Shown here one piece after another: positions 1 through 63,735 of a stretch of DNA of 64,000 nt. The notes below the pieces were generated by a model. That model had not been told where the DNA came from, searched no databases, and worked only from the letters and a program-made list of their open reading frames with translations. Numbering within the stretch: the first letter of the stretch is position 1; every line of letters starts with the position of its first letter. Source of the stretch: Fabrea salina (taxonomy: Eukaryota; Ciliophora; Heterotrichea; Heterotrichida; Fabreidae); assembly GCA_022984795.1 (NCBI GenBank), contig JALIHJ010000056.1:111725-175724 (forward strand). Direction: 5' to 3'. The position numbers and the translations under genes were made by a program.

Positions 1-2
1 TA

Positions 3-39904: not shown

Positions 39905-42900
39905 ATGTTTGCTCGATTGATGGGTATGTTTTTGTTAAGCCATGCTATCCAAATAGATAGGATGGCCACTCCTTACAGAGACAAGGTTGACCCAAGCTCA
40001 TTTTATGGTCTTAGTAGCGCATTTTTTGAGGGCAAGTTTGATGACTTAGACACCTCACATTATGCGGCCACAATTGGAGGGCAGGAATGCGAAATAATAT
40101 CTCTGAGTGAAACTGAGCTTGAGTGCTTAATCCCGCCTTGGGAATCTACTGATGGAGCCAGCGCTGAACTCAGGGTTGAGCATGAAGGCTCAGAAATATA
40201 TTCAAAAGACCTTAACTATGGAAACGTCTATCCTATAATTGCACTGAATAGAAATGAAGCCTCAACTGGTGACAAGATTAATACTTACTTACTTTGGAGT
40301 AACAGTCACGAAATTCAGAGCGGATATGTAGAAACTAACCCTCTAAAAATCGAACCCAAATGGAATTGGGGGGGATTTTTTGATTCAGGAAGGGTTGAAC
40401 TTGGAAACAACATTCATGGAGATTCCAACTTTAAGCTTGGGGTTACTGGAGTTGAACAAATTGACATGGCCTGGACAGGAGCTGGGTATACACTTGAAGG
40501 GAAAGAATACTTCTTCCGAACTATTGCTTCGGTAGAAAGCATTTCTCACAATGAAGGAAGTGCCTTAGGAGGCTTGGAAGTAACTATTGCTGGGAAGTCC
40601 TTTCCAGACGAAACCGGCAGAGTCAGAGTGGAGATAGATGGGAGTGACTGTCAAGTGACCAGTGCTGGTTTTAGTACTATTACTTGCAGAACTGGTGCTT
40701 ACTACAAGACCACCACAAAAAGTTATTACGAGGGAAGTGCTGGGTTGTTCAGAGAAAGGTATGGCCATGGAACTACTGACTTAGAACTAGAAGGATTCAT
40801 TCCAAATGCTGACTTAGACTACAATCTAGTACAAAAAGACTCCAAAATTTATGGGTACTTCAAAGCGCCAAGAACAGGAAAGTACACTTTTTACGCAAGT
40901 TTAAACGATAAAGCCAAAGTTTGGCTAAGCACGGATGCAGATCCCTCAAATAAAAACAAAATTATGGATATGCCTCCAGTTTTAACTCCTTTTATGTACT
41001 TCAATGGAACCTATAAATCTAATGAAATACAACTTTCCAGAGGTGAGTTGTATTACTTAGAAATAGCGCAAGAAAACTGCTGTGCACATGGATTTTTTTC
41101 ATTAGGAGTGGAAATTCCAGGTAACGGAAAGCTCTACAGAAACAGAATCCCCTTGGTTAAGAGAGTCGATATTACCAATCTCCATAACTCTCATCCCATT
41201 GAGTACAAAGGCCAGCACAAAAGCATAGGACTCTTAGATTGCAGTCTTAATGAACAATTAAACTACTATCAAAAGCAGTTGGGGTCGCAGTACTTCAACC
41301 TTTACATTTACTGCTTAAAGAATACTTTGTATGTTGCAGTTCCTGGATATATGAACCCCCAACCTGAAGACTTGAAGTTTAGGGATACTGGTGACAACTT
41401 GATTGAAGGAGAGCTTCTCCACCAACCCTCAGACTCTCAGTTCTGGTTTGTAATTCCTTCAGAGTTTCTGAGGACGTACCAAACCAAACCCCAACTCAGA
41501 GTTTGGATTGACGATAGACTCACTATGTGCACGGGAAACTGCTCTTTTGAGTACAAGAATGTGCCTATAGTAATGAGTTTCTCTCTGAATTCTAATACAG
41601 TGACTATCAATGGTCAAAACTTTCCAGTTGATGTTTCTAAACTAGAAGTAAAAATAGGTCCTGCAGATTGCAAAATTGACTTAAACTCACCCAGTTCAAT
41701 AAAGTGTGAGCTAGAGTCTTACACTGAAGGAAACTACCAACCTCAAGTTACTTATGATGGGTACTATAGCATTGTATTAGACTCAGGGATTAATTACAAC
41801 ATTACTCTAAAGTGCGCTGAAAACTGCTTAAAGTGTTATTCCTCCTCAACCTTTGACTGTATTGAGTGTGAAACTAGCTACTACTTGGTTCAAGGAGTCT
41901 GCAGTAGTATATGTCCTACTGGCTACTCCTGCTCCTCAACTCTATCTTCAGGCTCTGAACTTGCCTTCAAGCTTAAACTCAACACCTTGCAGAATGTACT
42001 TGAAGACTCAGAAAACTCAATTCCAGTGCTTACAGGAGTCAACAACCAGTTCTACCACTTCTTCCATGAAACTGATCCATACCCCGCGAAGGATCGAGGC
42101 TACTACTTTAGAGGGAGTTCAGTGATGCAACTGCCTCCTTATGGTGATGTTTCAGAGCCTCTACTAATCCTAGCTCCCCAATTTACAGTGAGTATGTGGA
42201 TTCGACCACTCTCTGGATCAGGAGTGCTACTCTCCAAGCAACACACCAACTACACTAGCATTCTAGAAATCGGACTCTCAGACTACAGTCTCTATGCAGC
42301 TCTAGACGAAACTTCTCAGTCCCCAGACAAGCTAAACAACTACTGGAACTTAGTGACTGTAAGGACTTTTGTGGACCAAGATCAATTCAAGTTAGAAGCT
42401 TACTACAACTCTACTTCAGTGCTATCAAAGACTTTAGGAGAAAACTGGTTCAAAGACTCGGATTCCGACTTCTACTTCTCAATAGGGGCCAAGCACTCCT
42501 CTAGCACTTTCAGCAACTTCTTCACTGGCTTTATTTGGGAAGTCAGAGTCTATAACTCAGTGATCGACCTAGAAGACCTATTCCAAGACTCTAACTTCTG
42601 CCCGATGCAAAACTCAGACAAGTGCCTACCACTCTGCGCAATAGAACAGTTCTGGGATGGCGAACAATGCAGAGAGTGCTTACCTAACTGTGATTTCGGG
42701 TGCATAAACAACTCCACTTGCAGTCTGTGTGGGAATGATTTATGCACTGACTGCCAGTTTGAAGTATGTACTGAATGTGTCCAGAATGCGATCCTGAACT
42801 CCAGTGAAACCTGCGCATGTAAAGAAGGCTACTACAGCCAGTATGGACTTTGCACACAAGGAGAGTTCTACGCTGAGCTTTCCTCTAACTCAGGCAATCT

Positions 42901-44446
42901 AGTGACTTTAGAATTCTCAGAACCTCTAGACTCAGAACTCCAGAACACTGACTACCAAATCTACCTCCAAAAGAAGTCTATAACCTTTGACTACACTGTT
43001 GTAGAAGTATCAAGATCCAGTTACAACTTTAGGCTTGAGTTTACTGGGTATGTTGCTGAAGGAGAGGTTCTTTTCTTAGATTTCAATCAGAACTCCACTA
43101 TAAAGTCAGAGTCCAAGTTTGTGCTGTCAACCCGGACCCTCCAAATCCAACTTAGTGAGTATCAGCCACCAGAGCCAGAAGCAGTCAGTGAAGCTAGGTC
43201 AAGTGGACAAGTAGTAGCAGGGACTACAGTAACCTCAGCTGTAATTAGCAGTGCTTTCAACCCTAACCCAGCAGCCTTGTGGGCATTGCTCAATACTCTT
43301 GACATATTCATGTACATTCCCTTGTCCAGCAATCCTCTAACACCTGGACTAGAGGCACTTTTTGAAGGACTTGATCTCTTGGAACTTTTTGTACCCAATC
43401 CCTTTGAATACTCATTTGACCCGAAGCTAAGCCCTACCTACAAGCAAACTTTCATAGAATTTGGGTTTGAATCAACCTTGTTCCTGCTCAACATAGGCAA
43501 GAAGTTCACTATTTTTGCTTCAGTAGTGGTAATATGGCCTTTAGTTTGGTTGCTCTCTAAGACAGGAATACCTTTACTAGGCAGAAAGTCCAAAGCCTTT
43601 TTACCAGAGTACAAGTATGGAGTGTTTTTGAGGAACTGGATCCAAATATTTCTTGACTTGTCAGTGGCTTCTGTGATACAATTTTCTGTAGCTCCTTCTT
43701 GGAACGGAATTGTACTGCTTAACTACTGCACAGGGGCTCTTTTTGGACTGTTAATTTTAGTGACTCCTTTGGCACTCACAGTGTTCAACATCAGAAACAA
43801 AAGCAAGATATCTGGCCTCAGTGAAGAATCAGTTTTCTACAGGCGCTGGGGAACTTTGTTTTACGAGTATAAATGCCAATCCAACTCATTCGCCCCCTAC
43901 ACTTACTTAGTGTTCTTTTTGAAGAGAGTGATTTTTGCTTCGAGTTTGGTGCTGCTTGGGGAGTATCCTGTTTTCCAGCACAGTGTGAATGCAGTTGTGA
44001 TGGTTGGGTACACAGCTTTGATTCTAGTTGTGAGACCATTCAAAGACAATATTGAGCAAACAACTGCAATAGTCACTGAAATAGGCACTTCCTTAGTATT
44101 TATAGGGTGCTCTTACTTCTTGCAAGACTCTTGGAGGGATTATGACCAAGAAGTAGAGGATGCACTGATTTACCTTACCTTAGGAGTAGTTATGGTTCAG
44201 TCACTAGCTGGAGTAGTGCCCCTAGCAATAACTATAGCTAAGTGGGTCAAAGAGAAGGTTACTAGACCTACTGTGAGAGTTGAGCCAGCTGAAGCCCCTG
44301 AAGCTTTGAGTCTTTTCAGAGAAAACCACCAAGTTGAAGAGCAGAAAGAAAACACGGCTTTAGAAGTAGTTTCACTTGACGAAGAAGTACTGAGACCAGT
44401 GAACCCAAAACGGGGTAGCCATACAAAGTCAGAGTCTTCTAACTAA
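39905..44446 (+). CDS. Large IPT/PA14/LamG/furin-repeat multi-pass membrane receptor (family member A)
   Basis: 1,513 aa. A signal peptide (1-16) precedes IPT/TIG-like units (~25-100, ~208-262 with SALGGLEVTIAGKSFPDE, and ~545-615) and a PA14-like unit (~275-400, YEGSAGLFRERY and YGYFKAPRTGKYTFYASL). A furin-like Cys cluster follows (~637-680), then a LamG/concanavalin-like fold (~700-895, FTVSMWIRPLSGSG), more Cys-rich repeats (~898-985) and a beta-rich stalk. Several transmembrane helices (~1195-1455) end in a cytosolic tail. IPT plus PA14 recalls fibrocystin (PKHD1)-like proteins, but a multi-pass C-terminus is not part of those. It is probably a cell-surface recognition or adhesion receptor. 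Member C is its inverted paralogue. Confidence 0.85.
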   Translation: MFARLMGMFLLSHAIQIDRMATPYRDKVDPSSFYGLSSAFFEGKFDDLDTSHYAATIGGQECEIISLSETELECLIPPWESTDGASAELRVEHEGSEIYSKDLNYGNVYPIIALNRNEASTGDKINTYLLWSNSHEIQSGYVETNPLKIEPKWNWGGFFDSGRVELGNNIHGDSNFKLGVTGVEQIDMAWTGAGYTLEGKEYFFRTIASVESISHNEGSALGGLEVTIAGKSFPDETGRVRVEIDGSDCQVTSAGFSTITCRTGAYYKTTTKSYYEGSAGLFRERYGHGTTDLELEGFIPNADLDYNLVQKDSKIYGYFKAPRTGKYTFYASLNDKAKVWLSTDADPSNKNKIMDMPPVLTPFMYFNGTYKSNEIQLSRGELYYLEIAQENCCAHGFFSLGVEIPGNGKLYRNRIPLVKRVDITNLHNSHPIEYKGQHKSIGLLDCSLNEQLNYYQKQLGSQYFNLYIYCLKNTLYVAVPGYMNPQPEDLKFRDTGDNLIEGELLHQPSDSQFWFVIPSEFLRTYQTKPQLRVWIDDRLTMCTGNCSFEYKNVPIVMSFSLNSNTVTINGQNFPVDVSKLEVKIGPADCKIDLNSPSSIKCELESYTEGNYQPQVTYDGYYSIVLDSGINYNITLKCAENCLKCYSSSTFDCIECETSYYLVQGVCSSICPTGYSCSSTLSSGSELAFKLKLNTLQNVLEDSENSIPVLTGVNNQFYHFFHETDPYPAKDRGYYFRGSSVMQLPPYGDVSEPLLILAPQFTVSMWIRPLSGSGVLLSKQHTNYTSILEIGLSDYSLYAALDETSQSPDKLNNYWNLVTVRTFVDQDQFKLEAYYNSTSVLSKTLGENWFKDSDSDFYFSIGAKHSSSTFSNFFTGFIWEVRVYNSVIDLEDLFQDSNFCPMQNSDKCLPLCAIEQFWDGEQCRECLPNCDFGCINNSTCSLCGNDLCTDCQFEVCTECVQNAILNSSETCACKEGYYSQYGLCTQGEFYAELSSNSGNLVTLEFSEPLDSELQNTDYQIYLQKKSITFDYTVVEVSRSSYNFRLEFTGYVAEGEVLFLDFNQNSTIKSESKFVLSTRTLQIQLSEYQPPEPEAVSEARSSGQVVAGTTVTSAVISSAFNPNPAALWALLNTLDIFMYIPLSSNPLTPGLEALFEGLDLLELFVPNPFEYSFDPKLSPTYKQTFIEFGFESTLFLLNIGKKFTIFASVVVIWPLVWLLSKTGIPLLGRKSKAFLPEYKYGVFLRNWIQIFLDLSVASVIQFSVAPSWNGIVLLNYCTGALFGLLILVTPLALTVFNIRNKSKISGLSEESVFYRRWGTLFYEYKCQSNSFAPYTYLVFFLKRVIFASSLVLLGEYPVFQHSVNAVVMVGYTALILVVRPFKDNIEQTTAIVTEIGTSLVFIGCSYFLQDSWRDYDQEVEDALIYLTLGVVMVQSLAGVVPLAITIAKWVKEKVTRPTVRVEPAEAPEALSLFRENHQVEEQKENTALEVVSLDEEVLRPVNPKRGSHTKSESSN

Positions 44447-45004
44447 GTTATTCAAGCTATTAGTTAAGCCTTAATTCAGTATTTACTAAGTTAATCTGGA
44501 TTGCTGTAGCAAGGAGTGACTTTAGACCAAATACAAGACTTTCTGATCTCCTTACTCGTAGCTTTAAAGAATTCTAGCAATGTAATTAGCCAATGTTAAT
44601 GTGAAGTTAATAAATGCGATCGTGCCAAGCGGAAGTGACCCAAACAAAGGTACTACTGATCCCAATACTCCTTTGGGCTTAGTAGTCTGTACTTTTTTGG
44701 GATCCCACCAACTACCAAGCGACGTTAGATAAAAGGACTGCGAAGATAACGAAGTTCTCTGCTTTATAGGCAAGAAAGGGGGAATGCAAGCCAGAACTAC
44801 TATACTCAGTATAACGGGGTTAAGCCTAGAGTAACAATGATTATTATAGGGTGTTAATGCTAGGGTTCTGCAAATGTCTCAGAGAGTGATAAAGTAATTA
44901 AGCATAGCTAGTTATAAAGTTAGGTTCTAAGCATTTGGCCATTGCCTCTGTGCAAGAACTAATTAATCAACGCTAATCAATCTTTAACAAAATTATTCAG
45001 TATA
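44447..45004. other. 558-nt intergenic stretch between receptor genes A and B
   Basis: No tRNA-like A/B boxes, long repeat or intact gene seen. It holds one start-less open frame on the minus strand (separate entry). The last bases before gene B are A/T-rich (AAAATTATTCAGTATA). Confidence 0.5.
44564..44878 (-). other. Start-less open frame with hydrophobic segments, possible relic
   Basis: 104 codons open from after a TGA to TAA, with no ATG. Two hydrophobic stretches (VILSIVVLACIPPFL and GTIAFINFTLTLANYIA) would suit a small two-pass membrane protein. No GTAA…TAG 15-nt intron upstream supplies a start. It could be a relic of an unrecognised gene or chance. Confidence 0.25.
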
Positions 45005-48000
45005 ATGATGAAAAGTTACGTTTTACCGATTTTGCTTGTTGAAATATTTGCTTACCCGTTTTGCTCTGATCCAGACGAAAGCCCCTGCACTAACTGTAAC
45101 CCAAGTTATTACTTACTTGAAGGTGTTTGTTTGAAAGCATGTCCCACTGGGTGCACTGAAAGTTCATCTTCTTGTGAATGCTCGGACACCCTCAACGATG
45201 TTTTTGACGTCAAATTCTACGAAAACACTGACATAAAAATCAAAACTATCAACGACTTCACCCAGAGTACAGACCTTACAGGTGTTGAATTAATTCATAG
45301 GACGGATCCCAGTCCTACCGAAGAAAGGGGCTACTACTTTGCGAAGGATTCTTCTTACAAGTCGAGTCAAGAGTTCTTTCCTGGGATCAGTAACGCTTTG
45401 ATTTATTGGATAAAACCTTCGAAGGATGGAAGGGTTATAACTATGGTGGACTCAGGAGTCCATTATAAGGTTGATAGGTCTGGAGGGAATTGGGCTTTCA
45501 CAACTAATTACACCAGCACTATAGATGGAGCTTATGAAACTGGGCACTTAACAACTAAACGTCAGTCTCGTGGGTGGGAAAAGGTGACCATCATAATGGA
45601 GCAAGTTGACGAAAACAATTGCACATTGAAAGGACTCATCAATAGCGAGCCAAAAAGCACAACTACTATAGAAAACTGTTGGTTTAGCTTTCAGTTTGAC
45701 TCATCGTCTTCAGTTGAATGGGTAATAGGCAAAAGTGATGCTGATGGGTTTGTGGGCCTTTTGTATAGGGTTCTTTTTAGGAACTCTGAGACTGATGAGC
45801 CTTTTACTTTGCCAAGCAATAGTTACAATGAGGAATACTATGATAATGAATGTAAAGGAAATGCTATAGACACTTGGATTTGTGGAGGTGGTTGCAACTC
45901 GGGTCCTTCAGTTCAAGGAGTCTGCATGCTTGACTGTCCTTTTGAATTTAATTGCACCAGTCACATGGAATCACTTCCAACAGGCTCTGTGCTAGAAGAA
46001 AACTTTGACCAGAGTCCTTGCTCTTACACTTACTTCCAAAGCGGGTCAAATGCTTCAAACTGCTTTCCAAGCACCAACCCTCAAAAAGACGATGTAGTTC
46101 CACTTAAAGGAAGAGGAGCTTACTACAACTACGACAAATTCCTGAAATCCAAAGACCAAGTCTACCTATACCACACCTTTAGCATTAAGCTGTGGGTTTA
46201 CCACATATCAGGAAACATCCTGAAAAAAGGGTCTGAGTTAGTGATTGATAATTCAGGAATGAAACTAGACCTTAAAAATATCTATGGCACTTACAACTCA
46301 ACAAGAATTACAAACTCCATACCCTCTAGTGCCTGGACTGAAATAGGTTTTAGTTGTAAGTTTTCTTTTACCACTACTCTAAAGTCTTACAAGGATGGTA
46401 GTCCTGTGGAAACCCACACTTTCGAGGACGTTTTTAGACAAACTAATTTGCTTTACTTTTTTATAGGAGACTTTGTTGGAGAAGGCATCATATACAAGTT
46501 CAAGTTGTGGCAAAATGAAGTTGATCTTTCAGGAACAATTGCCGGACCCCCAAACACTTCTGGTTACACTAACTGTGGAAGCTGTACATGGAGTGGAATC
46601 TTCACTCCTTGCTTTACTGACACCTTAAATGCTTGTGTTGATGGAGATCAGTACCTTTGTGTGGAGAATGTTCCCAAATGCAACACTTGCTTTGATGGCT
46701 GCAAAAGTTGTTCAGGGGATGAGTACTATGAATGCACTAGCTGCATGGCTGGCTTCTTCCTTCTAGATGAGTTTATGTGTGTGGAGGATTGCCCAAATGG
46801 ATTAAAAACCAACATTACAGATAGGAAATGTGAAGTTGTGGATGGAAATAGGCTTGGTCTAGGAGCTGACTTTAACAACCTTGTTACAATGAAGCATCTC
46901 AATTTCAAAAAAGAGCCTTATCCGTCTAAACTTAGAGGATACTACTTTAATCAAGATTCTACAGGTAAAAAGAGGAACTTCGTCATAGGACCTCAATTCA
47001 CTATTTTGGGGTGGATTAGACTCAAAGAAGATGGAATCTTGCTGAGTAAAGGCTACACTGAGCCTGTTCTTAAGTTCGCCTCAGAAAAGCTACAACTCAA
47101 CATTGAAACTGAGTCAGGGGAAACAGTTTCTTTGGAAAGCACTTCTAGCTTTAAAGACACTTGGACTTACTTTTCTGTTTCTGGAGAAATTCTTGAAGAC
47201 GGAAAAACTAAGTTTCTGCTGAAAGTAAATGATACTCATGAGCATAATTATACTACCTCTGGGGCAACATTCTTTTTAGATAATAAGCAAGTTGGATTTG
47301 AACTAGTTTTGGGGAATGATGCAAACTCTTTTGTAGGGTTTTTGTGGAGCATCAGAATATACAATATTCACGGAATGGAAGCAGAAGGGTTTTCTACTAC
47401 GAACTGTTCTTCTGAGTGTTCTGGATTCTGTCCAACTGAGCTCATTTGCCCTAGTGACTGCGAATTAGACCATTACCCTGATGGAACTGGGTGCTCTCCT
47501 TGTAAGTCTGGGTGTGATAAAGGATGTGTGAGACCTGAAAACTGCAGGCTTTGTGCTCATGAGCTTTGCCGTAAATGTGGTTACTTCACTGAGTTTTATG
47601 ATTCACAAAAGTCATGCAGTCGTTGTCAATCCAATGCACATTTCAATGGGGATAGCTGTGAGTGCAATTTGAAGTATTACAAAAACGAAGCAGTTAAAGC
47701 TTGTCATTCCTGTACTCCAGGGTGTGATAGATGCACTTCTTCTCTTTTCACAAACTGCACTCAGTGTAGCTCTACTCACTTTCCAATACAAGGCGTCTGC
47801 CATCTTTTTTGTCCTTCAGGTGTATGTGATCCAGTTGATGACTTTGTATTCCACCTACAACCTCACGCCTTTCAAAACATTGTCATAGACACTCAGTTTT
47901 CTATTCCAGTACTCACAGGAAATAATAACAGTTTCTATCCAACTCCTGGTGTCCATGACCCAACTCCCGCCAAAGACAGAGGCTATTACTTTGGCGGCTC

Positions 48001-50707
48001 AGCTTACATGCAACTGCCACCCTACAACTCAGTAACTACACCACTGCTCACTCTAGCTCCTGAGTTCACTCTAGCAATGTGGATAAGACCTACTGCTGAC
48101 TCTGGGACTCTTATAACCAAACAAAGAGATTCATCAGGAGTAAGTACCAAATTCAAAGTCTCACTCAACTCCAAGCAACCCCAAGTAGACCTGGGCCTAA
48201 CCTCAACTCCTCACTCCTCGGCTGACTCAACAAAAGAAGCCTGGAACTTTCTGGTAGTTGGAACACACTTAGACTCATCGGTGCCTGAGTTCAGAGTTTC
48301 TGCCTACCTAGACACTACCCAAGTGATTTCTAACAGTTTGGGGAATGATTGGCTAGTGGACCTAGAAGACTCTTACCTGTTCTCAATAGGAGCCGAACAT
48401 TCAGACCAAACTACATTTGACAACTTCTACACTGGGTTCCTTTGGGAAGTGAGAATTTACAACTCACACAGAGATCCTACTACTTTGCTGCAGTCTTCTA
48501 ATTGCGAGTCCTGCAGTTTCTGCCCTATAGACAACCAAGACCAATGCCTACCTAACTGCTTAATCACTGACTTCTGGGATGGAAATGATTGTGTGGAGTG
48601 CGACTCTGAGTGTACTAGTGGATGCTCTAGACAGCACACTTGTAACTTGTGTGGAGACTCCTTTTGTGCAAGTTGCAGTAGCTTCGAAGAAGAAGACTGC
48701 ACTCAATGCAAAGCCAATGCCTCTGGGAAGCCTTGTCTATGTGACGAAGGCTATGCATTAGACAGATTGAACCTAACCTGCATTGAGTGTGGACCTCCAA
48801 ATAATAGAGAAATTATAGACAGAAAATGCTACTGTGTAAAAGGCTACTTCAACAGCAGTCCTACCAAAATTGAGTGCACTGAATGCCACTCCTCATGCGA
48901 AACTTGCTCAGGCCCAGATGCCATTGACTGCCTTTCGTGCGACGGCTTTTACCTCTACGAAGACGGAAGTTGCGGACCTTGCCCCCATGGAACTTACTTA
49001 GAAGGCACTGAATGTTTAGAGTGTATGGAGCTGTGTGCAATTTGTATAAGTGAAGATAAATGCATAAACTGTGTAGAAAATGCTTTCATGAACATCAATA
49101 ACGCTTGCTCCTGTAACAAAGGATTCACTAGCCTTAACAACACTTGCGAGTGCTTGAGCGGATCTATAAGAGACGAAGTTTGCACTGACTTCTACTCAAA
49201 CTTGACTTGCAGCAAAAATAACCTGCTCACACTTACCTTTTCACAGGAACTAGCGCCTCCACTGACCCAAGAAAATATTTTTATTCACCTAAAAAACAAA
49301 AGCATTGAGTACACCTACTCATTCAAAGAAGTAAACAAGGCCAAGTACGAGATGAAGCTAGAGTTTAACACCTTTTATGTGTCAGAAGGAGAGCTTGCTA
49401 CTCTGGAATTTTTGTCAGAGATAAACAGCACTTCTGGGTTTAGTTTGGGAGTCAAGCAGCTAGAAACAAGCCTATCAAAGTATGACACTTACAAACCTTT
49501 ATTTGATAAGGGTAAAACAACAGCCCAAGTAACAGCAGGTGTTGCAGGAGCTATGGGTGGAGTGTCGATACTCATAAACGGAAACCCTGCAGACATCTGG
49601 TCAATGTTAAACAACATTCAGCTACTCTCCTACCTTGTTATGAGCAACAACCCACTAACTCCTACTTTGAGGGGTTTGTTTGAAGGACTTGATGTGTTCC
49701 AATACGCCTCTGACTTATTCAGCTACTTGCTTAAGTTAGTCACAGGGAAAGACTCTAAGTACTACGAAAACAAGTACGGAATAACTTCAGAAATGTTTTT
49801 GTTCAATGCTGGAGTAAACATTGTGATCATGTTCCTCATGCTGCTGAATTGGCCTGTAGTATGGTTGCTTTCCAAGATTCCAAGTTTACAGAATAGACTC
49901 AAGCCAGTGCTAAGGGAGTACAAGTACAATGCATTCCTAAGATACTGGATTCAATGTTACCTGGAACTGTCGATAGCTTGCTTTATACAGGTGTCTTCAG
50001 TTCCTGACTCAGAAACAATTGGAGTTGTTAACTTTATAGTAGGGTTCTTAGTTACTCTTTCTATAGTAGCAACTCCTTTTGTGTTGTTTGGATTCTGCAA
50101 GAAGTACAAGGACAGGATTATTAGCCTGTCTGATGAATCCAACTTCTATTTAAGCTGGGGAACACTCTTCTACGAGTTCAACTGCAGCTCAAACTTCAAC
50201 CCCAGTTTAACCTACCCAGTGTTCATCTTAAGAAGAATGCTTTTGTCTATGAGTCTGGTTCTACTTGGAAACTTTCCATACACTCAGGCTGGTATCAATG
50301 CTGCTTTGAGTATTGGGTACACTGTGTTTCTGTTCAAAGTAGCTCCCTACAAAGAAGCAAAGACCCAACTAGCCTCAGCCTCAGCTGAAGTTGTTCTTAG
50401 TTTAGTGTTCCTGCTAGTCACCTACTTCTTGCAGACTGACTTCCGAGGCATTGACTGGCTAGTTGAAATCTCAGTAGTATGCTCAACAGTAGGCGCAATT
50501 GCCTTCCAGTCACTAGTCACAATCTGCTACTTCGTATACCAAAAGTGCTGCAAAAAAGAACAGGTAGATATAAGCGAAGTCACAGAAATTAATTCAACCC
50601 AAAACCACCTGTTCTTTCAGAGAAGAAACCAAGCAAAAGTAGCTCCAGAAGTACTAAGTCCTGAAAGCGAAGAAACAGAAAACAATACCTTCGAAGACCG
50701 TAACTAA
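45005..50707 (+). CDS. Very large LamG-repeat/furin-repeat multi-pass membrane receptor (family member B)
   Basis: 1,900 aa. A signal peptide (~1-20) precedes alternating Cys-rich and LamG-like units. Four LamG-type modules can be traced (~70-285, ~330-512, ~615-800, ~950-1160), each introduced by the family's DP-P-ERGYYF or KDRGYYF-type motif. Long furin-like Cys repeats (~1165-1390) and the beta-rich stalk precede the C-terminal multi-pass region (~1590-1845) with the family signatures NPLTPTLRGLFEGLD and YLSWGTLFYEFNC. It lacks the IPT and PA14 units of A and C, so the family varies by exchanging N-terminal modules on a constant membrane domain. It is probably a surface receptor or adhesion protein. 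Confidence 0.85.
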   Translation: MMKSYVLPILLVEIFAYPFCSDPDESPCTNCNPSYYLLEGVCLKACPTGCTESSSSCECSDTLNDVFDVKFYENTDIKIKTINDFTQSTDLTGVELIHRTDPSPTEERGYYFAKDSSYKSSQEFFPGISNALIYWIKPSKDGRVITMVDSGVHYKVDRSGGNWAFTTNYTSTIDGAYETGHLTTKRQSRGWEKVTIIMEQVDENNCTLKGLINSEPKSTTTIENCWFSFQFDSSSSVEWVIGKSDADGFVGLLYRVLFRNSETDEPFTLPSNSYNEEYYDNECKGNAIDTWICGGGCNSGPSVQGVCMLDCPFEFNCTSHMESLPTGSVLEENFDQSPCSYTYFQSGSNASNCFPSTNPQKDDVVPLKGRGAYYNYDKFLKSKDQVYLYHTFSIKLWVYHISGNILKKGSELVIDNSGMKLDLKNIYGTYNSTRITNSIPSSAWTEIGFSCKFSFTTTLKSYKDGSPVETHTFEDVFRQTNLLYFFIGDFVGEGIIYKFKLWQNEVDLSGTIAGPPNTSGYTNCGSCTWSGIFTPCFTDTLNACVDGDQYLCVENVPKCNTCFDGCKSCSGDEYYECTSCMAGFFLLDEFMCVEDCPNGLKTNITDRKCEVVDGNRLGLGADFNNLVTMKHLNFKKEPYPSKLRGYYFNQDSTGKKRNFVIGPQFTILGWIRLKEDGILLSKGYTEPVLKFASEKLQLNIETESGETVSLESTSSFKDTWTYFSVSGEILEDGKTKFLLKVNDTHEHNYTTSGATFFLDNKQVGFELVLGNDANSFVGFLWSIRIYNIHGMEAEGFSTTNCSSECSGFCPTELICPSDCELDHYPDGTGCSPCKSGCDKGCVRPENCRLCAHELCRKCGYFTEFYDSQKSCSRCQSNAHFNGDSCECNLKYYKNEAVKACHSCTPGCDRCTSSLFTNCTQCSSTHFPIQGVCHLFCPSGVCDPVDDFVFHLQPHAFQNIVIDTQFSIPVLTGNNNSFYPTPGVHDPTPAKDRGYYFGGSAYMQLPPYNSVTTPLLTLAPEFTLAMWIRPTADSGTLITKQRDSSGVSTKFKVSLNSKQPQVDLGLTSTPHSSADSTKEAWNFLVVGTHLDSSVPEFRVSAYLDTTQVISNSLGNDWLVDLEDSYLFSIGAEHSDQTTFDNFYTGFLWEVRIYNSHRDPTTLLQSSNCESCSFCPIDNQDQCLPNCLITDFWDGNDCVECDSECTSGCSRQHTCNLCGDSFCASCSSFEEEDCTQCKANASGKPCLCDEGYALDRLNLTCIECGPPNNREIIDRKCYCVKGYFNSSPTKIECTECHSSCETCSGPDAIDCLSCDGFYLYEDGSCGPCPHGTYLEGTECLECMELCAICISEDKCINCVENAFMNINNACSCNKGFTSLNNTCECLSGSIRDEVCTDFYSNLTCSKNNLLTLTFSQELAPPLTQENIFIHLKNKSIEYTYSFKEVNKAKYEMKLEFNTFYVSEGELATLEFLSEINSTSGFSLGVKQLETSLSKYDTYKPLFDKGKTTAQVTAGVAGAMGGVSILINGNPADIWSMLNNIQLLSYLVMSNNPLTPTLRGLFEGLDVFQYASDLFSYLLKLVTGKDSKYYENKYGITSEMFLFNAGVNIVIMFLMLLNWPVVWLLSKIPSLQNRLKPVLREYKYNAFLRYWIQCYLELSIACFIQVSSVPDSETIGVVNFIVGFLVTLSIVATPFVLFGFCKKYKDRIISLSDESNFYLSWGTLFYEFNCSSNFNPSLTYPVFILRRMLLSMSLVLLGNFPYTQAGINAALSIGYTVFLFKVAPYKEAKTQLASASAEVVLSLVFLLVTYFLQTDFRGIDWLVEISVVCSTVGAIAFQSLVTICYFVYQKCCKKEQVDISEVTEINSTQNHLFFQRRNQAKVAPEVLSPESEETENNTFEDRN

Positions 50708-52809: not shown

Positions 52810-52849
52810 GAATTGGTTGATTGGAATTCTTTAGTGGTACATTTACTAC

Positions 52850-55056: not shown

Positions 55057-55062
55057 CTAGAC

Positions 55063-55066
55063 TTTT
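55063..55066 (+). terminator. Pol III T-run after 5S
   Basis: TTTT seven nucleotides after the mature 5S 3' end, the usual RNA polymerase III termination signal. Confidence 0.7.
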
Positions 55067-55117
55067 ATTACCCAGAACTAGGCTTAAGGGTTACTATCTG
55101 GGTTAGAATTTATTATT

Positions 55118-58100
55118 TTAATTGGGACTTTGGACTTGGTGGGTCTTGACAAAAAGTGAGTTGTCTTGTAGGTTTGGGTCGATTTGACTCTCAAAAGTGT
55201 TCTGGAACTGGGTTTCAACTATTTCTGGGACTACTTGGGTCCTCTGGCACTTCTTTTTGATGAACTTGGCTATGGCCTGGAGTGCACCTACAGCAACAAA
55301 GAGAGTTCGTAGTCCAATAAGTGCATAAGTTAAGTAGATGACTGCTTCCTCTGCTTTGTACTTGCCTCCCCAGTCACTCAAGAAGTACATCACAACTAGG
55401 TAGACCACAAACACTCCTGTTTCTACAACCACAGAGACTAGTTGCTGGAGTTTGTCTTTGTAGGGTCTCACTACTAACAGAAACACAGCAAACACAACCA
55501 TCAGAACAGTGTTGATGGTGGCTTGTGTGTAGGGAAAGTTTGTCGGTAGAATGAGACTGACTCCTAACAGTAGTCTCACAAGAGTAAACAAAGCATAGGT
55601 GTAACTAGCTTTGAATCTCTCTGTGCAATCGAATTCATAGAAGAGTGACTTGTAGTTTTTGTAGGTCTCTGATTCCTCTGACTCCTGTTGTGATTCTTTG
55701 ATTGTAGTTTGGTTCTTTCTGCAGAAGACAACTATTGCACCTGGAGTGACTACTAGGAGTACTCCCACTACAACTGCTGGAATGAAGTTATTGACCACTT
55801 CTCTTGCTATTGAGTCTACTGAGTAGAGCTGAATGAAGCAAGAGATAACCAAGTCCAAGTAAGTTTGAATCCAAAACCGAATAAGGACTCCGTACTTGTA
55901 CTTGGCCAGCAGTTTTTCACAGACTCTTTTGATCTTGGGTATTTTGGACAGTAGCAAGATCACAGGCCACAGAGCTAGTAGAAACATGAGTACAGTCAAG
56001 TCTTTTCCTGAGTTCTCCAGAAACAAATAAGACTCATACCCGTAGTCTTTGGAGTAGTAGTTGGGGTTAGGCCTGCTTTCGAAGTTAAACAAGTCAAAGA
56101 CATTGGGAATCATGCTCCTCATTGTATTGAGCCCTTTAAAGAATCCCTTGGTTTTAGGAGTAAGTGGGTTGGTAGTGAGAGGAATGTAGGTCAGTATCTG
56201 GATAGTGTTCATACTAGCCCACAGTCCTGAAGGATTGGGATTGAACACAGCTGAAATTCCAGATATTGCTGTTGCTGCAGAGGCTGTAGTTTGAGCTTGA
56301 CTTTCAGCTTGTTTGGCTTCTTCAGCTGAAGGATCATACTCGTAGAGTTGTACTTGCAGTACTTTGTCTTCCAGAATAGAGTTGGTTTCACTAACTACTC
56401 CAGAAGCATTAGTAAACTCTAAGTAGGCCAGTTCTCCTTCAGACACGTAAGACTGGAAACTGAGCTCAAACTTGTAGTCATCCCTCTTTGAGTAGCTGAA
56501 CTCAATTGACTTGTTTTGCAGGTAGATGCTGTAGTCAGTTGGTGTTAGTTGGGAAGTAGGAATCTCAGAGAAAGTTAGAGTCAGAGTGTTGTCTTCTGCT
56601 GCAGTTAAGTTGGCGTAGAATAGTTGTCTTTGACAGAGTCCGTATTTGGCAAAGTAGCCTTGGTTACACTCACAGGTGTTGCTCTTCACTGATGCGTTGT
56701 TTACGCAACTAGTGCATTCTTGGAAGTCACACTCAGTGCATAAATCATTTCCGCATAGACTACAAGTAGAGTTGTTTATGCAGCCGAGTTCACAGTTAGG
56801 TAAGCACTCTCTGCATTTTTCGCCATCCCAGAACTGGTTTATATCGCAGAGTGGTAGACACTTGTCTGAATTTCCTAGTGGACAGAAGTCACAACCTTTG
56901 CAGTTGGAGTCTTGAAGTAGGTCTTCTAGGTCGATCACTGAGTTATAGACTCTGACTTCCCAAATGAAGCCAGTGAAGAAGTTGCTGAAAGTGCTAGAGG
57001 AGTGGTTGGCCCCTATTGAGAAGTGGAAGTCGGACTCTGAGTCTCTGAGCCAGTCTTCTCCCAGACTCTTTGATAGCACTTGAGTAGAGTTGTAGTAGGT
57101 TTCTAACTTGAATTGATCTTGGTCAATGGAGCTTTTGACAGTAACTAAGTTCCAGTAGTTGTTTACCTTGTCTGTGGACTGAGAAGTTTCGTCTAGAGTT
57201 ACATAGAGACTGTAATCTGAGAGTCCGATTTCTAGGATGTTAGTGTAGTTGGTGTGTTGCTTGGAGAGTAAAGTGCCTGAGGATGAAAGTGGTCTAGTCC
57301 ACATACTCACAGTGAATTGGGGAGCCAGCGCCAAAAGAGGCTCTGAAACATCACCATAAGGAGGCAGTTGCATCACTGAACTCCCTCTAAAGTAGTAGCC
57401 TTTGTCTTTAGTGGGATAGGGATCGGTCTCATGGAAGAAAGGGTAGAACTGGTTGTTGATTCCTGTAAGCACTGGAATTGAGTTTTCTGAGTCTTCAAGT
57501 ACATTCTGCAAGGTGTTGAGTTTAAGGTTGAAGGCAAGTTCAGAGCCAGAAGATTGGGTTGAGGAGCAGGAGTAGCCAGTAGGACATATACTACTGCAGA
57601 CTCCTTGAACCAAGTAGTAGCTAGTTTCACACTCAATACAGTTAAAGGCTGAGGAGGAGTAACACTTTAGACAGTTTTCAGCACAAGCCAGTTCTATTGA
57701 GTAGTCGATGCTGGAGTCCAGTGGAATGGTGTAGTCTTTGTAAGTGACTCTTGGTTGGTAGCTTCCTTGAGTGTAGGAGTCTAGTTGGCAGGTTATTAGA
57801 GCGTCTGAGTTAGTTTGGATTGCACAGTCAGCAGGTCCTACTTTCACTTGAAGTTGAGAGGAGTCCTTAGGGAACTTCTGGCCGTTGATGGTTACTGTTT
57901 TTGAGTTCTCAGAGAATCTTTTGATGACTGGTTGGAAGGAACAGTCTCCTCTACACATGGTGAGTCTGTTGTCAATCCAGACTCTGAGTTGAGGCTTGGT
58001 TTCATAGGTTCTTAAAAAGTCAGAAGGGATCACAAACCAGAACTGGGAGTCTGTGGAAGCTTCACGCAGAGTTTCTCCTTCTACTTCAGTGCTGTCAGTG

Positions 58101-59596
58101 AGTTTGAACTTGAGGTCAGAAGAGCTAGGATTCATGTAGCTTGGAAGGAGAGCGTAGAGGTAGTTATTGTGGCAGTAAACATACAAGTTGAAGTAGGTCC
58201 TGCTTATGTGAGATTGATAAAAGAAGTTCTTTGAAGTGCAATCTGCAGGGTTGAATCCACCCGTTATTTGCTTGTTTTCTCCCTTGTAAACAAAGGGATG
58301 ATTGCTAGTATCAAGAGCATTGGAGCTCAAATCCAACCTCTTGATCAAAGGAAATCCGTTCCTTTGCCCACTCCCAGGCATTTCTACTCCCAGTGTAAAC
58401 GAGTTCCTTCCTCCTGAACTGTGGTGTTCCACTTCTAGGTAGTAAGACTCTCCTTCTTCTAAAGCTATAGAGTTAGACTGATTCTCTCCACAAACGAAGT
58501 ACACATGTTCATCTGACTCCTGACTTGAGTTGATTATCTCTTGCTTGTTGAGAGGGTTGGAATCAGTGCTTAAGTAGACTCTAACACTTCCTCTGAAAGA
58601 AGTGTAGAATACATAGTCTCCTGTTATAGGGGCTTTGAAGAGTCCATAGATGAGTGAGTCATAGTCATCCGTGGTTGTAAGGGTAGTTGCTGAAGGAATG
58701 ACTGTTCTCTGGATTAACTCGCTCTGGACTTTAATGTTGCCTGCAGTGTATGTCTCTCTCACTAGCCCTGCACCTCCTTCATAGTAGTCTCTGTTCTCCA
58801 AGTTGAAGTAGATTTCACTACTGCACTTGATAGTGTTGGAGGTTGCTTGAGTGACTTGGCATTGGGACCCATCCACTTCTACCTGAACTCTGGAAGTGTC
58901 GCTGGGGAAGGACTTCCCAGTGACTGTAGCTTGTATTCCGTTGTCTGAGTTGAAGGAGACTGTTTCAACAGCACCCAGAGTTCTGAACCAGTATTGTTCT
59001 CCTTCTAGTGTGTAGGCTCCTGTCCAGTATAGTGCTCTTATTCTGTCCCACATCTTGTACTCCACACTCTGGTCTCCATGCACATTGTTATCTACTACTC
59101 CATTCAGAATGTAAGGTCTAGAGTTTTCAACATATTCACTCTCAAATGCTACTTCTAGTCCTTCTATCTTCAAGTAGTTTATACCGTCTTTACGGCTTTC
59201 CCAAGGAAGAAAATGCAGGCCAATAGTGTCTCCAGCAGCTCCTTCACTTGGAACCAGACTCATTATGGGATCAGGCCAAATCCACCTAAACGCACTGTCT
59301 TCGAAGTATATTTGCACAGACTTGTGCAGTACTTCTAAGTCAGGGTTGCTTGTATCACTCCCATCCCAAGGAGGAATAAGGCACTCGATCTCATCTGCTT
59401 TCACAGAGAGTATTTTGCAGTCCCTTCCATCTAACGTCACTTGGTAGTTACTTTTATCCAAGTCACTTGTGAAGTCCCCAAACAAGTACAGGCTACTCAG
59501 ACCTTGGAATATTTGAGGATCAGTAGTTCCCTTGTTAGGAGTAGCTATTTGAGTCACACTCACAGCTTGGCATAATCCTAGCAAGAACACAATCAT
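55118..59596 (-). CDS. Large IPT/PA14/LamG/furin-repeat multi-pass membrane receptor (family member C)
   Basis: 1,492 aa with the domain order of member A: signal peptide (~1-14), IPT-like units (~20-100, ~206-255, ~545-610), PA14-like unit (~265-400, with YYEGGAGLVRETY), Cys cluster, LamG fold (~690-885), Cys-rich repeats, beta-rich stalk and multi-pass region (~1195-1450; NPLTPKTKGFFKGLN, YKSLFYEFDC). The Cys cluster plus LamG segment is about 88% identical to A by hand count, while the IPT/PA14 part and the membrane domain are much less alike. It retains a CKGCD segment that A has lost. The leader is GAGTTAATAAAT-ATG. It lies in inverted orientation relative to A. Confidence 0.85.
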   Translation of the reverse strand: MIVFLLGLCQAVSVTQIATPNKGTTDPQIFQGLSSLYLFGDFTSDLDKSNYQVTLDGRDCKILSVKADEIECLIPPWDGSDTSNPDLEVLHKSVQIYFEDSAFRWIWPDPIMSLVPSEGAAGDTIGLHFLPWESRKDGINYLKIEGLEVAFESEYVENSRPYILNGVVDNNVHGDQSVEYKMWDRIRALYWTGAYTLEGEQYWFRTLGAVETVSFNSDNGIQATVTGKSFPSDTSRVQVEVDGSQCQVTQATSNTIKCSSEIYFNLENRDYYEGGAGLVRETYTAGNIKVQSELIQRTVIPSATTLTTTDDYDSLIYGLFKAPITGDYVFYTSFRGSVRVYLSTDSNPLNKQEIINSSQESDEHVYFVCGENQSNSIALEEGESYYLEVEHHSSGGRNSFTLGVEMPGSGQRNGFPLIKRLDLSSNALDTSNHPFVYKGENKQITGGFNPADCTSKNFFYQSHISRTYFNLYVYCHNNYLYALLPSYMNPSSSDLKFKLTDSTEVEGETLREASTDSQFWFVIPSDFLRTYETKPQLRVWIDNRLTMCRGDCSFQPVIKRFSENSKTVTINGQKFPKDSSQLQVKVGPADCAIQTNSDALITCQLDSYTQGSYQPRVTYKDYTIPLDSSIDYSIELACAENCLKCYSSSAFNCIECETSYYLVQGVCSSICPTGYSCSSTQSSGSELAFNLKLNTLQNVLEDSENSIPVLTGINNQFYPFFHETDPYPTKDKGYYFRGSSVMQLPPYGDVSEPLLALAPQFTVSMWTRPLSSSGTLLSKQHTNYTNILEIGLSDYSLYVTLDETSQSTDKVNNYWNLVTVKSSIDQDQFKLETYYNSTQVLSKSLGEDWLRDSESDFHFSIGANHSSSTFSNFFTGFIWEVRVYNSVIDLEDLLQDSNCKGCDFCPLGNSDKCLPLCDINQFWDGEKCRECLPNCELGCINNSTCSLCGNDLCTECDFQECTSCVNNASVKSNTCECNQGYFAKYGLCQRQLFYANLTAAEDNTLTLTFSEIPTSQLTPTDYSIYLQNKSIEFSYSKRDDYKFELSFQSYVSEGELAYLEFTNASGVVSETNSILEDKVLQVQLYEYDPSAEEAKQAESQAQTTASAATAISGISAVFNPNPSGLWASMNTIQILTYIPLTTNPLTPKTKGFFKGLNTMRSMIPNVFDLFNFESRPNPNYYSKDYGYESYLFLENSGKDLTVLMFLLALWPVILLLSKIPKIKRVCEKLLAKYKYGVLIRFWIQTYLDLVISCFIQLYSVDSIAREVVNNFIPAVVVGVLLVVTPGAIVVFCRKNQTTIKESQQESEESETYKNYKSLFYEFDCTERFKASYTYALFTLVRLLLGVSLILPTNFPYTQATINTVLMVVFAVFLLVVRPYKDKLQQLVSVVVETGVFVVYLVVMYFLSDWGGKYKAEEAVIYLTYALIGLRTLFVAVGALQAIAKFIKKKCQRTQVVPEIVETQFQNTFESQIDPNLQDNSLFVKTHQVQSPN

Positions 59597-60015
59597 ATTT
59601 ATTAACTCTCCACTTTACCTTAACTTTACTTAGTTACTTACTTCTAGCTATCTAAACCTAAGCACCCAGAATTGGTTTTAGAGTTCACTTTCTTGGAAAT
59701 ATGACAAAAGGGGTCCTTTTGAATTTCTTCAACAACCCATTTTCTAAGAAATGCCTAGCTAAGTCAAGGTTCTTGTTAAGTAATGGGACTTGAGTTCCAA
59801 TCAACTACAAGTAGTTAATCACTGTAGTCAGTTTTGGCTCACATCAGGAAATAAGCAACTTCTGTAGCTATATAAGTCTGTTCGCACTCTTGAACAGAAA
59901 CATGGGTATTCCAAACCCATATTTCGTGTAACTCAAGTATATTTAGTACTTAGTCACACCAATCCGAAAGTGTATAGAATGTTAAGAACAGTGTCTAACT
60001 GGGTTATGCTTTGTA
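59597..60015. other. 419-nt intergenic stretch
   Basis: No gene seen. It contains one copy of a 22-bp direct repeat (59717-59738) that recurs at 60575, and a small inverted repeat (ATGGGT…ACCCAT). Confidence 0.5.
59717..59738 (+). repeat. 22-bp direct repeat, left copy
   Basis: Identical to 60575-60596 (begins TTTTGAATTTCTTC). The two copies flank the B-box-like pseudogene. Weaker similarity continues downstream (AAATGCCT versus ATATGCCT). Confidence 0.75.
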
Positions 60016-60530
60016 ATGGAAAACACCTGCCCTTTTGGTTGCCCAGCTGTTTATCGGTGTAGCTGTGGAAGTATCCTATGTGACCATGTGATGCCTAGTC
60101 ACTTTAGAATGGGTCATACACTTAGTTTCCTACCTAAAGCACAGGTAGTTGACATGATTTCCCAGAAGAAGAAGGAAGTCATCCAGATAACCCAAAAGCT
60201 GACCTCGCAGCAACTTGCCGATCAACTGGGCTTTTCAAACTAACTAAGGACTCAAATTGAAGAGCAAGAAATGAACTCACTAAGAATTCTAACTGACTTT
60301 GAGGAATCCAGAAATCAAGAAGTCCAAAAACTCAACCAAAGAATTGCTGTTCTCCAAAAGAAGCTCCGAAAAACCAAAACAAACAATAACTGGATGAAGA
60401 CTTCTCAAACCAACTCGGAGAAATCATGACTCGAAACGAAGAAACAATTGCGTCACACGAAGCAATCATTAATGCCCTGATAGAAGAACTCGAAGAAATC
60501 AAAGCAAGGTACGACAGCAGACTACAGTAG
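60016..60530 (+). pseudogene. B-box-like zinc-finger plus coiled-coil gene, broken
   Basis: The 5' part (75 codons) encodes a Cys/His cluster (CPFGCPAVYRCSCGSILC, then H, H and H in SHFRMGH), like a B-box or RING-derived finger, then a short helix. TAA at 60241-60243 interrupts it, but the same frame continues as coiled coil (LRTQIEEQEMNSLRILTDF…). Near 60,395 the frame shifts into LDEDFSNQLGEIM … IKARYDSRLQ and ends at TAG 60530. One stop and one frameshift break an otherwise coherent ~170-aa protein. Finger plus coil proteins are typical adaptors or E3-like proteins, but the function is unknown. Confidence 0.65.
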
Positions 60531-60574
60531 GTACCATAGAATCCAGAGATTAAAGTTAAACTCTAGAAAATCCA

Positions 60575-60596
60575 TTTTGAATTTCTTCAACAACCC
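60575..60596 (+). repeat. 22-bp direct repeat, right copy
   Basis: Identical to 59717-59738; lies just downstream of the B-box-like pseudogene. Confidence 0.75.
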
Positions 60597-60717
60597 TTAA
60601 ATTCAAGTTATTCAGAGATATGCCTCATAAAGCCTCATTACACCCTAAATCAAAAACCAACAAACTTTTATTATACTCAGAGCATCTTGATTATCTTTAA
60701 TAATAACTCTAAGCTAC

Positions 60718-63700
60718 TTAATGACCAATCGTACCATCTAAAACAGCTCTTCTGGTAGTTTTAGACTCTCCTGGCTGGCCTCTGTTGTTTCTAAAGGAGT
60801 CAAGTTTCCTGGCAACCACTTCTCCTGGCTGGTCTTGCACTATACCTCCATCAAGCACAATCCCTTTGGGTTCTTTGTGCTCCTCTTCAGGTTGATTTGT
60901 TCTAGACTTCTGGTCTTGTAATGCTTATAAGTCACTTTCAAGAAAAACAAAATGCAGGCTAGAACTTGCAAACAAAATATAGCTAACACAACGAAAAAGA
61001 TAATTCTTTCCAGGTTCGTTGTTGACCTACACTTGGAAACACATAAAAGATAATCAACCCAAACACTATGCAGATTCCTATCTCAGTGAGGTGTTGAAGA
61101 CCTGGAAGATGCCTTCAGAGTAAGGCCAGGCCACCACCATAAAGAGCAGAAATCCCACCATCAGTCCTAAGTTCAAAAGGCCTGGACTTTTGGGTAACTC
61201 ACTTAAGTACACAAGGCTCACTGAGTACAAGAGTCGTCTTCCCAGAAAAGCTGAGTGGAAGTACTTAAGCGTTGGAGTTAGCTTCAGTTCTGAACTCATA
61301 AATCAAAGAACCCCATAGTTGGAAGATCAGTGAGTGTTGATGTAGGCTATCTATTTCTTGCTTCCTTCTTTTCTGTGGAAAACAGTAATGAGTGGAGGCG
61401 AAGTCACTAGAAGCAGCAAAGCAGTTCGCTGTGCAAACATGTAGCTCATGTAAACACTATAGTTGAAAGAAGCCAAGTAGAGCACCTGAAGCTTATTGCA
61501 GATATAGCTAACCTGGGCACCCCCTGAATCCACACTCGCAAAACACTCCGTACTTGTACTCCTTCATAAGGGACTTGAACTTGCTTTTGGTAACTGCAAA
61601 CCCGCACTCTGCAAGAATAGCTACGAAGGGCAAACCCGCAACCACCAGCCCTAAAACTCCAATAGACCCAGAAGCGTTGAGTATAAAAACAAGTTGGACT
61701 CCATGCCGTAGTCTTCAGCTTGCTCGTGGGGGTTAGGACTGTCTTGGGGGTCCATAAAGTACCCAAAAACGTTAGAACGAAGTTTATGAAGTTGATGCCT
61801 TTGAAAAGTCCTTTGAGGTAAGGAGTGAGTGGATTGTTGGTCATAGGGACGTAGGTTAAAAGCTGCACAAGTGTTGAGAACTGACCAAAGAGAGAGGAGG
61901 GGTTCCCTGAAATAACAGAAGTGGACACTGCCATCACAACAGTACCTATTACTAAAGCTTCACAGAGTAGCTTCTATCTTCTTCTGAGCTTTCCGGGTCG
62001 TGCTCACTTAGCTCTACACTAAAGGTTTGGTTAAACAGAGGTTGTTGTCAGCACTCAGCAGGTTCTGGTGGTTCCAGATCTTCAGCTCAACTAGACTTTC
62101 TTGCTCAACTTTATCCTGGAAGTAAGGACTCACCCAGTAGACTGAGTTGGTTCTTTTTTCAAATGAGTAGTAAATGTAGGTGTTCTCAAAGCTCACTGAA
62201 AGGTTGCGTTTAGTTAGGTCTTCTTTAAGGCTTTTAGTAAAGTTCAGTTCTAGCAAGTTGTTTCCCTTTTGTTTTGCAGGTATAAGTAGAAGTGGTTCTT
62301 CTTGGCAAAAAGTGACGTTTTGAAAGTAGTCTTCGTCACAATACAAAGGGAGTCCTTTTCTAAGTGGGCGTTTTCCACACAACTCACACATATGTCCTTG
62401 CTTTCACAAGTCAGGACAAAGATTTCTGCAGTCAAAGCACTCGTTGTTCTGAAGGTACTTGCCTTCCTCACAGTCTCCACAAGTTCCATTCTTCCGCAAG
62501 TAAGAGTCTTTTGCAGGGGAAGGCAATGGTCTCTCGGGACCTTCGCAGGTTTGGCAAGAGGAGTCACATTCTTCACAGAAGGATCCAGACTCCATGTAGT
62601 ACCCTTCCTCACACACACACTTGTCATTCTGAAGACTGGAGTGACTTGGACAAGCACAGTCACCTGAAGCTTCCTGGTAAGAGTTTTCTGGAAGACAGTT
62701 TACACAGTTAAGTTCCAGGGGGGAGCAGTGCTGGCACTCCAAAGTGCACTCCACACAAACTATGCCTAGGGGATCAGAGTTGTAGAATCCCTCCTGACAC
62801 ACACAGTTGCTTTCCACAGCTGTTCTGTTAAGTGACTCATCACAAGGAATGCAAGTTGACTAAAAGGGGTCCAGACCTAAGCCCTTTTTTACACACACAA
62901 GGACTTCCCTCAGCTCCAGCTGAACAGACCAAACAGCCTCCCTTCATAAACGTTACACTGCTCGCACAAGGGATCTTGAATAAAGGTTGCAGGTGGTGGA
63001 AGAAGCAAAACCCTTTGTGCAAGAAGGGTCGCACTCTCTGCATTCCAGTCCGTCCCAGTACCAGTCTATCAAGCAGTTGGGAATGCACTCTCTGTTTGAG
63101 TTCTCTAAAGGGCACTCTGTGCAGTCTTTGCAAGTTACTTCAAGCATGGAGTTAAGGCTTTTGTAGGGGAGTTGTAGATGCTTACTTCCCAAATGAACCC
63201 TTCGTAGAAGTTTGCAAGAGTTACTTGATCAGAGTGCTCTGCGCCAATGCTGAACAGAAAGTTGGAGTCCAGGTCGTCCACCCAACTAGTGCCTGAGTTT
63301 ACTGCAAGTGAAAGTGTTTGGTTAACGTAAACTTCCAACTTGAAGTCCGAGTCCAGGTAAAAGTACACTCCCAAAAAGTTCCAACCCTCGTTCATGCCTA
63401 CACTTCCAGTTGGACTTAAAAAGCTCTCTAGTTCCACTTCAGGAAAGTAATTGTTGAGTCTAATGCAAAACTCAGTAGCCACTCCAGAAGAGCTCTGCTT
63501 GCTTCGACAAAAGAGTTCCAGTTGAAGAAGTTGGCCTTACCCACATACCCAAACTGAACTGAGGAGCTAAAACTAGTGAAGGCGAAGGCAGCTGCATGTA
63601 AGAAGAGCCTGTGGTAGTAGCCTCTGTCCTTAGCAGCCCAGGGGTCAGAAGAGTCGTAGTTGGGGTAAAAACTGTTGTCCTCGCCAGTAAGCACTGGAAT

Positions 63701-63735
63701 GGAACTTGCAAGTCAGTTACTATGTCCTGATGTTA
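60718..63735 (-). pseudogene. Frameshifted receptor-family copy D, truncated by the telomere
   Basis: All modules of the C-terminal half of the family are present in order but in changing frames. They are the LamG start (LTGEDNSFYPNYDSSDP, 63,690), its core (LAPQFSLGMWVRP; FSIGAEHSDQVTLANFYEGF at ~63,220), Cys repeats (CRECDPSC; CEEGYYMESGSFCEEC), the stalk (LELNFTKSLKEDL), the membrane segment (MTNNPLTPYLKGLFKGINF, 61,800; VAWPYSEG, 61,120) and a clean cytosolic tail ending at TAA 60718. At least six frame changes or stops occur. Homology to the family (DIVTDLQ against NIVIDTQ) runs to within a few bases of the telomeric repeats, so the N-terminal half is missing. Confidence 0.8.

Follow-up and report, generated by a model that had tools for sequence, protein, structure and literature searches.

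RESULTS

A cluster of giant genes beside a telomere

The window, the whole stretch of 64,000 nucleotides that was analysed, covers the right-hand end of a contig of 175,724 bases from the heterotrich ciliate Fabrea salina, and a telomere array closes it. The array (63736 to 63997, forward strand) has a period of 8 and the unit GTGTTAGG. This unit is a permutation of the complement of CCCTAACA, the repeat that PMC9942806 gives for the telomeres of Blepharisma, also a heterotrich. The contig set surveyed comprises 103 contigs and 18.33 Mb in total, with densely packed genes. Given the heterotrich-type telomere, the size and the dense packing, the assembly is most likely macronuclear.

The receptor-like genes of the window lie within about 24 kb of this chromosome end. 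Gene A (39905 to 44446, forward strand) is a PA14/IPT-headed member of 1513 amino acids, gene B (45005 to 50707, forward strand; core match at 49583 to 50524) is a serial-LamG-headed member of 1900 amino acids, and gene C (55118 to 59596, reverse strand; core match at 55286 to 56239) is again PA14/IPT-headed, with 1492 amino acids. Each is a single open reading frame (ORF), and the sequence-only reading was right to list three intact giants. The broken copy that it added is also there: blastx places a decayed family member at 61087 to 63729 on the reverse strand, in pieces in all three frames that align with about residues 957 to 1793 of B. Its N-terminal half is lost at the telomere array, where the copy ends.

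Other genes share the region. A cyclic-nucleotide phosphodiesterase with at least two GAF domains and weak PAS matches occupies 33619 to 38601 (forward strand). A dynamin/GBP-like GTPase gene lies between receptor genes (51193 to 52809, forward strand), and a 422-amino-acid ORF with hydrophobic stretches, for which Pfam gave no match at E 0.1, is found at 53078 to 54346 (forward strand). A Cys/His-rich ORF of 75 amino acids (60016 to 60243, forward strand), followed by further stops, adjoins the relic and is possibly the beginning of a zinc-binding gene that has decayed.

Variable heads on a shared stalk and core

The head of A (residues 1 to 636; 39905 to 41812, forward strand) comprises a leader, three IPT/TIG domains and a PA14/GLEYA domain as named by Pfam. 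Its end was set by comparison with the members C64b, C71a, C85a and C67b, whose similarity to A starts at A residue 632 to 636 and runs at 62 to 80% onward. The stalk follows (about residues 637 to 985; 41813 to 42859, forward strand), with a LamG domain at residues 758 to 888 by Pfam between two parts that are Cys-rich by their Cys pattern. Next come a membrane-proximal beta domain (42860 to 43159, forward strand), Ig-like by our own reading, and the multi-pass core. At the N terminus of A, B and C, plain hydropathy finds a hydrophobic leader, a putative signal. The proposed furin/LamG stalk thus holds for LamG, but furin was not named by Pfam, and "Cys-rich" is the description that the Cys pattern supports.

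The N-terminal modules differ as had been claimed, with IPT plus PA14 in A and C and serial LamG in B. In A, TIG, LamG and GLEYA exceeded their Pfam cut-offs and PA14 fell just below (22.4 of 24 bits); in C, TIG, LamG and PA14 were above cut-off; B matched LamG alone. A and C, because they are 51% identical end to end, are by that measure plain paralogs of each other. B resembles them only in the stalk (43 to 46%) and the C-terminal part (35 to 36%). Moreover, the stalk of A aligns to B at three sites and the stalk of C to a fourth, which is consistent with the "serial LamG" description of the head of B.

Heads of further kinds occur elsewhere in the genome. The head of C64b differs from that of A and combines LamG with an H-type lectin match below cut-off (20.8 of 24 bits), and the head of C81a, like that of B, is a LamG series. 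The head of A (residues 1 to 636) matches 73 genome pieces, and the first 297 residues of C64b match 29. Judged by family name, the IPT plus PA14/GLEYA, H-lectin-like and serial LamG heads would all be lectin-type folds. One further member (C54:6700-11950) is a 1705-codon ORF with low-complexity residues 1117 to 1248 before its core, a stretch with a Plasmodium_HRP match below cut-off.

The multi-pass core of A (43178 to 44263, forward strand) was modeled by AlphaFold as about eight long helices (pLDDT 84.6, pTM 0.82), hydropathy gives seven peaks near the C terminus, two of them overlapping, and a cytoplasmic-type tail is predicted after the core. A common multi-pass domain is borne out, but "constant" was too strong a word, as the core of A is 41% identical to that of B and 40% to that of C. 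The core may be a distant relative of the TRP family PF06011, whose match is weak in A and C. Against a cut-off of 28.5 bits, the profile scored 24.1 with the core of A and, by hmmscan of whole proteins, 20.3 in A and 25.2 in C. It exceeded the cut-off at 28 of 48 genome places among the matches listed, including the place of C at 28.7 bits, and matched at E 0.1 in 11 of 25 core members. Giant lectin-headed ectodomains set the receptor family apart from this TRP/flavin-carrier-like family. A PDB sequence search with the core returned nothing better than noise at E 0.07, and Foldseek with the core model returned no kin among solved structures at E 0.001. Further structure looks gave a beta-domain match and, as regards the seven-TM fold of a GPCR, only 7TM-like arrangements at noise level.

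A dispersed family of at least 140 loci

The family comprises at least 140 loci, decayed copies included, on 57 of the 103 contigs. Four core queries gave 119 to 126 matches each from 157 to 192 candidates, and their union of 142 became 140 when two fragments were merged; the number is a lower bound, and the window relic lies outside it. The loci form 34 clusters of two to five and 48 singletons, and neighbors mostly share a strand (48 of 58 adjacent pairs).

Subtelomeric placement had been proposed as a trait of the family, and a survey of contig ends contradicts it. Of 138 loci on contigs of known size, 50 lie less than 20 kb from a contig end against 44.3 expected (p 0.20), and 85 lie less than 50 kb from one against 89.5 expected. 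Expectations were obtained by circular shift of positions inside contigs, which preserves clustering, and distances were measured to contig ends, some of which are possibly not true telomeres. The subtelomeric model failed with an earlier set of 127 matches in the same way as with the 138 loci. We conclude that the family is spread over the genome, with clustering, rather than concentrated at chromosome ends. Match density was 28.2 per Mb on contigs of 60 to 120 kb and 4.6 on those over 270 kb, a comparison over 67 contigs whose sampling is biased to member-bearing contigs and from which we conclude nothing.

Some contig ends and segments look duplicated. The left end of contig C54 (positions 1 to 3953) is 99.0% identical to C83:49452-53423 over 3963 columns (14 mismatches, 18 gaps), making the two duplicated or alternative chromosome ends. 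Across 2692 bases, C52:74654-78628 and C49:61767-65741 agree at 98.6% but run in opposite directions; the two contigs carry copies of one segment. Finally, equal-score core copies lie near both ends of the 70,999-base contig C75 (4138 to 5139, reverse strand; 66642 to 67643, forward strand), and the pair looks like an inverted terminal duplication.

Heads, stalks and cores have been exchanged between genes

To what extent heads and cores share a history was read from 28 genes (A, B, C and 25 fetched ones), chosen rather than drawn at random. Among the 21 with PA14 heads, head identity and core identity were uncorrelated over 210 pairs (rho 0.04, p 0.55; Mantel p 0.23). In the control, halves of the same module correlated at rho 0.84 for heads, 0.57 for cores and 0.89 for stalks (171 pairs for the stalk). 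Cores 96% identical occur with heads 38% identical and, conversely, heads 84% identical occur with cores 33% identical. Heads were at most 50% identical in 10 of the 20 pairs whose cores were at least 90% identical, and cores were at most 45% identical in 10 of the 16 pairs whose heads were at least 70% identical. The head tree and the core tree had none of 18 splits in common, and the tree of either module was rejected by the data of the other (p-AU 5e-38 and 1e-97); support was at least 95 for 6 and 7 of the 18 splits in the two trees.

Individual genes show the same discordance. The core of C64b is 88% identical to that of A, yet its head is different. The heads closest to that of A (61 to 68%) sit on cores 38 to 41% identical to the core of A; one gene, C67a, shows the reverse (head 56%, core 60%). 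C56a and C68a have a core dS of 0.06 and saturated heads, C and C72b have a head dS of 0.32 and a core dS of 2.66, and C54a and C64b have a stalk dS of 0.00 over 344 codons and a core dS of 1.08. The stalk of C72a is 95% identical to that of C68a and its core 90% identical to that of C43a. Moreover, DNA tracts of 90 to 97% identity stop inside genes; the tract common to C54a and C67a, 1680 bp at 96.5%, ends 45 bp upstream of both stop codons.

Breakpoints recur at certain places. From 120 pairs of 16 single-ORF genes, 45 strong breakpoints, which are mutually non-independent, were called, and 37 fell in three inter-domain zones, 22 at A residues 450 to 574, 2 at 625 to 649 and 13 at 875 to 1024. 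Four lay inside the core at residues 1250 to 1274 and four elsewhere. Module exchange between family genes, which the sequence-only reading had proposed, is real, as the conflicting trees and the contrast between head-core and within-module correlations show. Some of the mosaics may stem from similar paralogs having been mis-assembled. Taken alone, the existence of the family and of exchange within it is close to certain.

Exchange is not equally free for all parts. Head identity correlated moderately with stalk identity (rho 0.40). A wider head-core table held 38 of 73 PA14-head pieces, 20 of 29 H-lectin-type pieces, and 97 of the 122 cores found with the A query plus one other; it excludes fragments and any head for which no core was listed nearby, and the pairing was pre-selected, such that the table gives trends only. 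In it, with identity taken to one query, core identity was again unrelated to PA14-head identity (rho -0.03, 37 genes). H-lectin-type heads closer to their query head, by contrast, had cores closer to that of A (rho 0.83 across 18 genes of this pre-selected table), suggesting that H-lectin-type heads are less freely mixed. These heads sit on cores outside the A class in 14 of 20 cases (13 measured; the core of C34 is unmeasured against A).

Selection and decay

Median pairwise dN/dS was 0.245 for heads (14 pairs), 0.246 for stalks (29 pairs) and 0.28 for cores (34 pairs), the pairs being non-independent. Values near 0.25 show purifying selection. Positive selection in the heads was considered and set aside, as their pairwise dN/dS is not raised, although pairwise averages are insensitive to diversifying selection.

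A single ORF was retained in 21 of the 28 genes, 17 of them 1400 to 1600 codons long. A frame change or in-frame stop was found in 7 of the 25 fetched genes outside the window, and the occurrence of relics, as first noted, is supported. Introns are an unlikely cause of the breaks, since ORFs of different frames overlap in these copies, though tiny introns may account for single cases. The copies concerned may be genuinely decayed or may contain sequence errors.

DISCUSSION

What the family does for the cell is approached here through its parts. We infer a surface-receptor role in recognition from the domain families, the leader and the topology. The N-terminal leader would take the protein into the secretory pathway, a glycan-binding-type head would be displayed outside the cell on its Cys/LamG stalk, and the multi-pass core would anchor the protein in the membrane. 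Heads, stalks and cores would be swapped among paralogs, mainly at inter-domain stretches, and the tract pattern points to ectopic recombination or gene conversion as the probable route. One cell would thereby hold a combinatorial repertoire of receptors. For ligands and signaling we likewise infer: the most likely use would be recognition of contacts or particles (prey, other cells, surfaces), with the core perhaps relaying a signal by ion entry or in a receptor-like manner. The reading as a whole, in which paralogs exchange parts and so build up a combinatorial set of surface-recognition proteins, we regard as evenly balanced between right and wrong.

At least 140 receptor-like loci occur in one cell with a very small genome, and ligand heads and membrane cores are combined nearly independently. 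Such a family would lend itself to the study of how repertoires for recognition arise outside immunity, and it would open to direct test how heterotrichs recognize contacts and other cells and choose their food. A literature search over titles and the beginnings of abstracts found no account of the receptor family; the Fabrea salina genome paper may hold one.

The main rival on function is kinship with the alveolate CRMPs. The family would then be an expanded set of relatives, receptors that set off the release of cortical secretory organelles, with heads matched to stimuli. As described in PMC9670195, CRMPs combine a signal peptide with an EGFR-type Cys-rich part and, at the C-terminal end, several transmembrane (TM) segments (predicted to number 5 in Tetrahymena and 9 in Toxoplasma and Plasmodium), the apicomplexan proteins carry lectin and Kringle parts, and CRMPs are required for mucocyst or rhoptry discharge. 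The family shares this general plan of a leader, a Cys-rich part and multiple C-terminal TM segments, and Mdl1p, a LamG membrane protein that according to PMC9159632 acts in mucocyst docking, offers a precedent. The likeness is one of description, however, and the at least 140 mosaic loci far exceed the few CRMPs named in PMC9670195, an account that in the part consulted tells of no mosaic exchange. We consider CRMP kinship unlikely, though worth keeping in mind.

Alternatively, the family may follow a birth-and-death course, its parts reshuffled by gene conversion to little functional effect beyond the dosage of similar adhesins. A dN/dS of about 0.25 with no excess in heads and the broken state of 7 of 25 fetched genes would suit such a course. 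The retention of one long ORF in 21 of 28 genes of a very compact genome speaks against it, as does the position of most breakpoint calls between domains, and we find it improbable.

Recognition of mating type or of self and non-self, by proteins like Tetrahymena MTA and MTB, is highly improbable. Heterotrichs use secreted gamones. MTA and MTB resemble the family by description, being large proteins whose N-terminal part is specific to the mating type and is joined to a TM exon, common to all, that has furin-like repeats (PMC3608545), the same plan of a variable head and a shared Cys-rich multi-TM C-terminal part. They are, however, one head-to-head pair at a single somatic locus, formed by somatic joining (PMC3608545), whereas the receptor family is dispersed over at least 140 loci in mostly same-strand clusters (48 of 58 adjacent pairs) with several head and core classes.

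We give as little credence to a switching surface coat that serves antigenic variation. The large mosaic family, its decayed copies and recent segmental exchange recall such coats, and there is a ciliate precedent in the variable surface antigens of Paramecium, likewise large, Cys-rich and multigene (PMC9788069). The classical Paramecium antigens are GPI-anchored in that account, however, whereas the receptor family has a multi-pass core, a cytoplasmic-type tail and lectin-type heads; its loci are not subtelomeric (50 of 138 against 44.3 expected), and its dN/dS is purifying. For either a mating-type or an antigen-variation role, the defining genomic features were absent as far as tested.

Least probable is that germline cassettes are reshuffled into head-stalk-core combinations at each macronuclear development to give a clone-specific repertoire, as in Tetrahymena mating-type joining but over more than 100 receptor loci: recurrent inter-domain breakpoints and the stalk dS of 0.00 beside a diverged core in C54a and C64b would allow such somatic shuffling, but copies within one core class differ by a dS of about 0.05 to 0.2, and one germline cassette per class would be insufficient.

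Finally, the family had been labeled PKHD1-like. PKHD1/fibrocystin does combine IPT/TIG and PA14 in one ectodomain, as the family does. Fibrocystins, however, are single-pass proteins with G8 and parallel-beta-helix parts, whereas the family has a multi-pass core and LamG stalks, and Pfam, run at E 0.1 for A and at E 0.01 for C, found neither G8 nor beta-helix domains in them. We therefore do not retain the label. Separately, contigs C27, C32, C69, C87 and C92 carry ORFs of 1811 to 3359 codons with IPT/TIG series, some with PA14, and with no listed core nearby. These IPT-array ORFs are possibly closer to fibrocystin-type proteins, and those on C87 show the same inverted two-end pattern as the core copies of C75.
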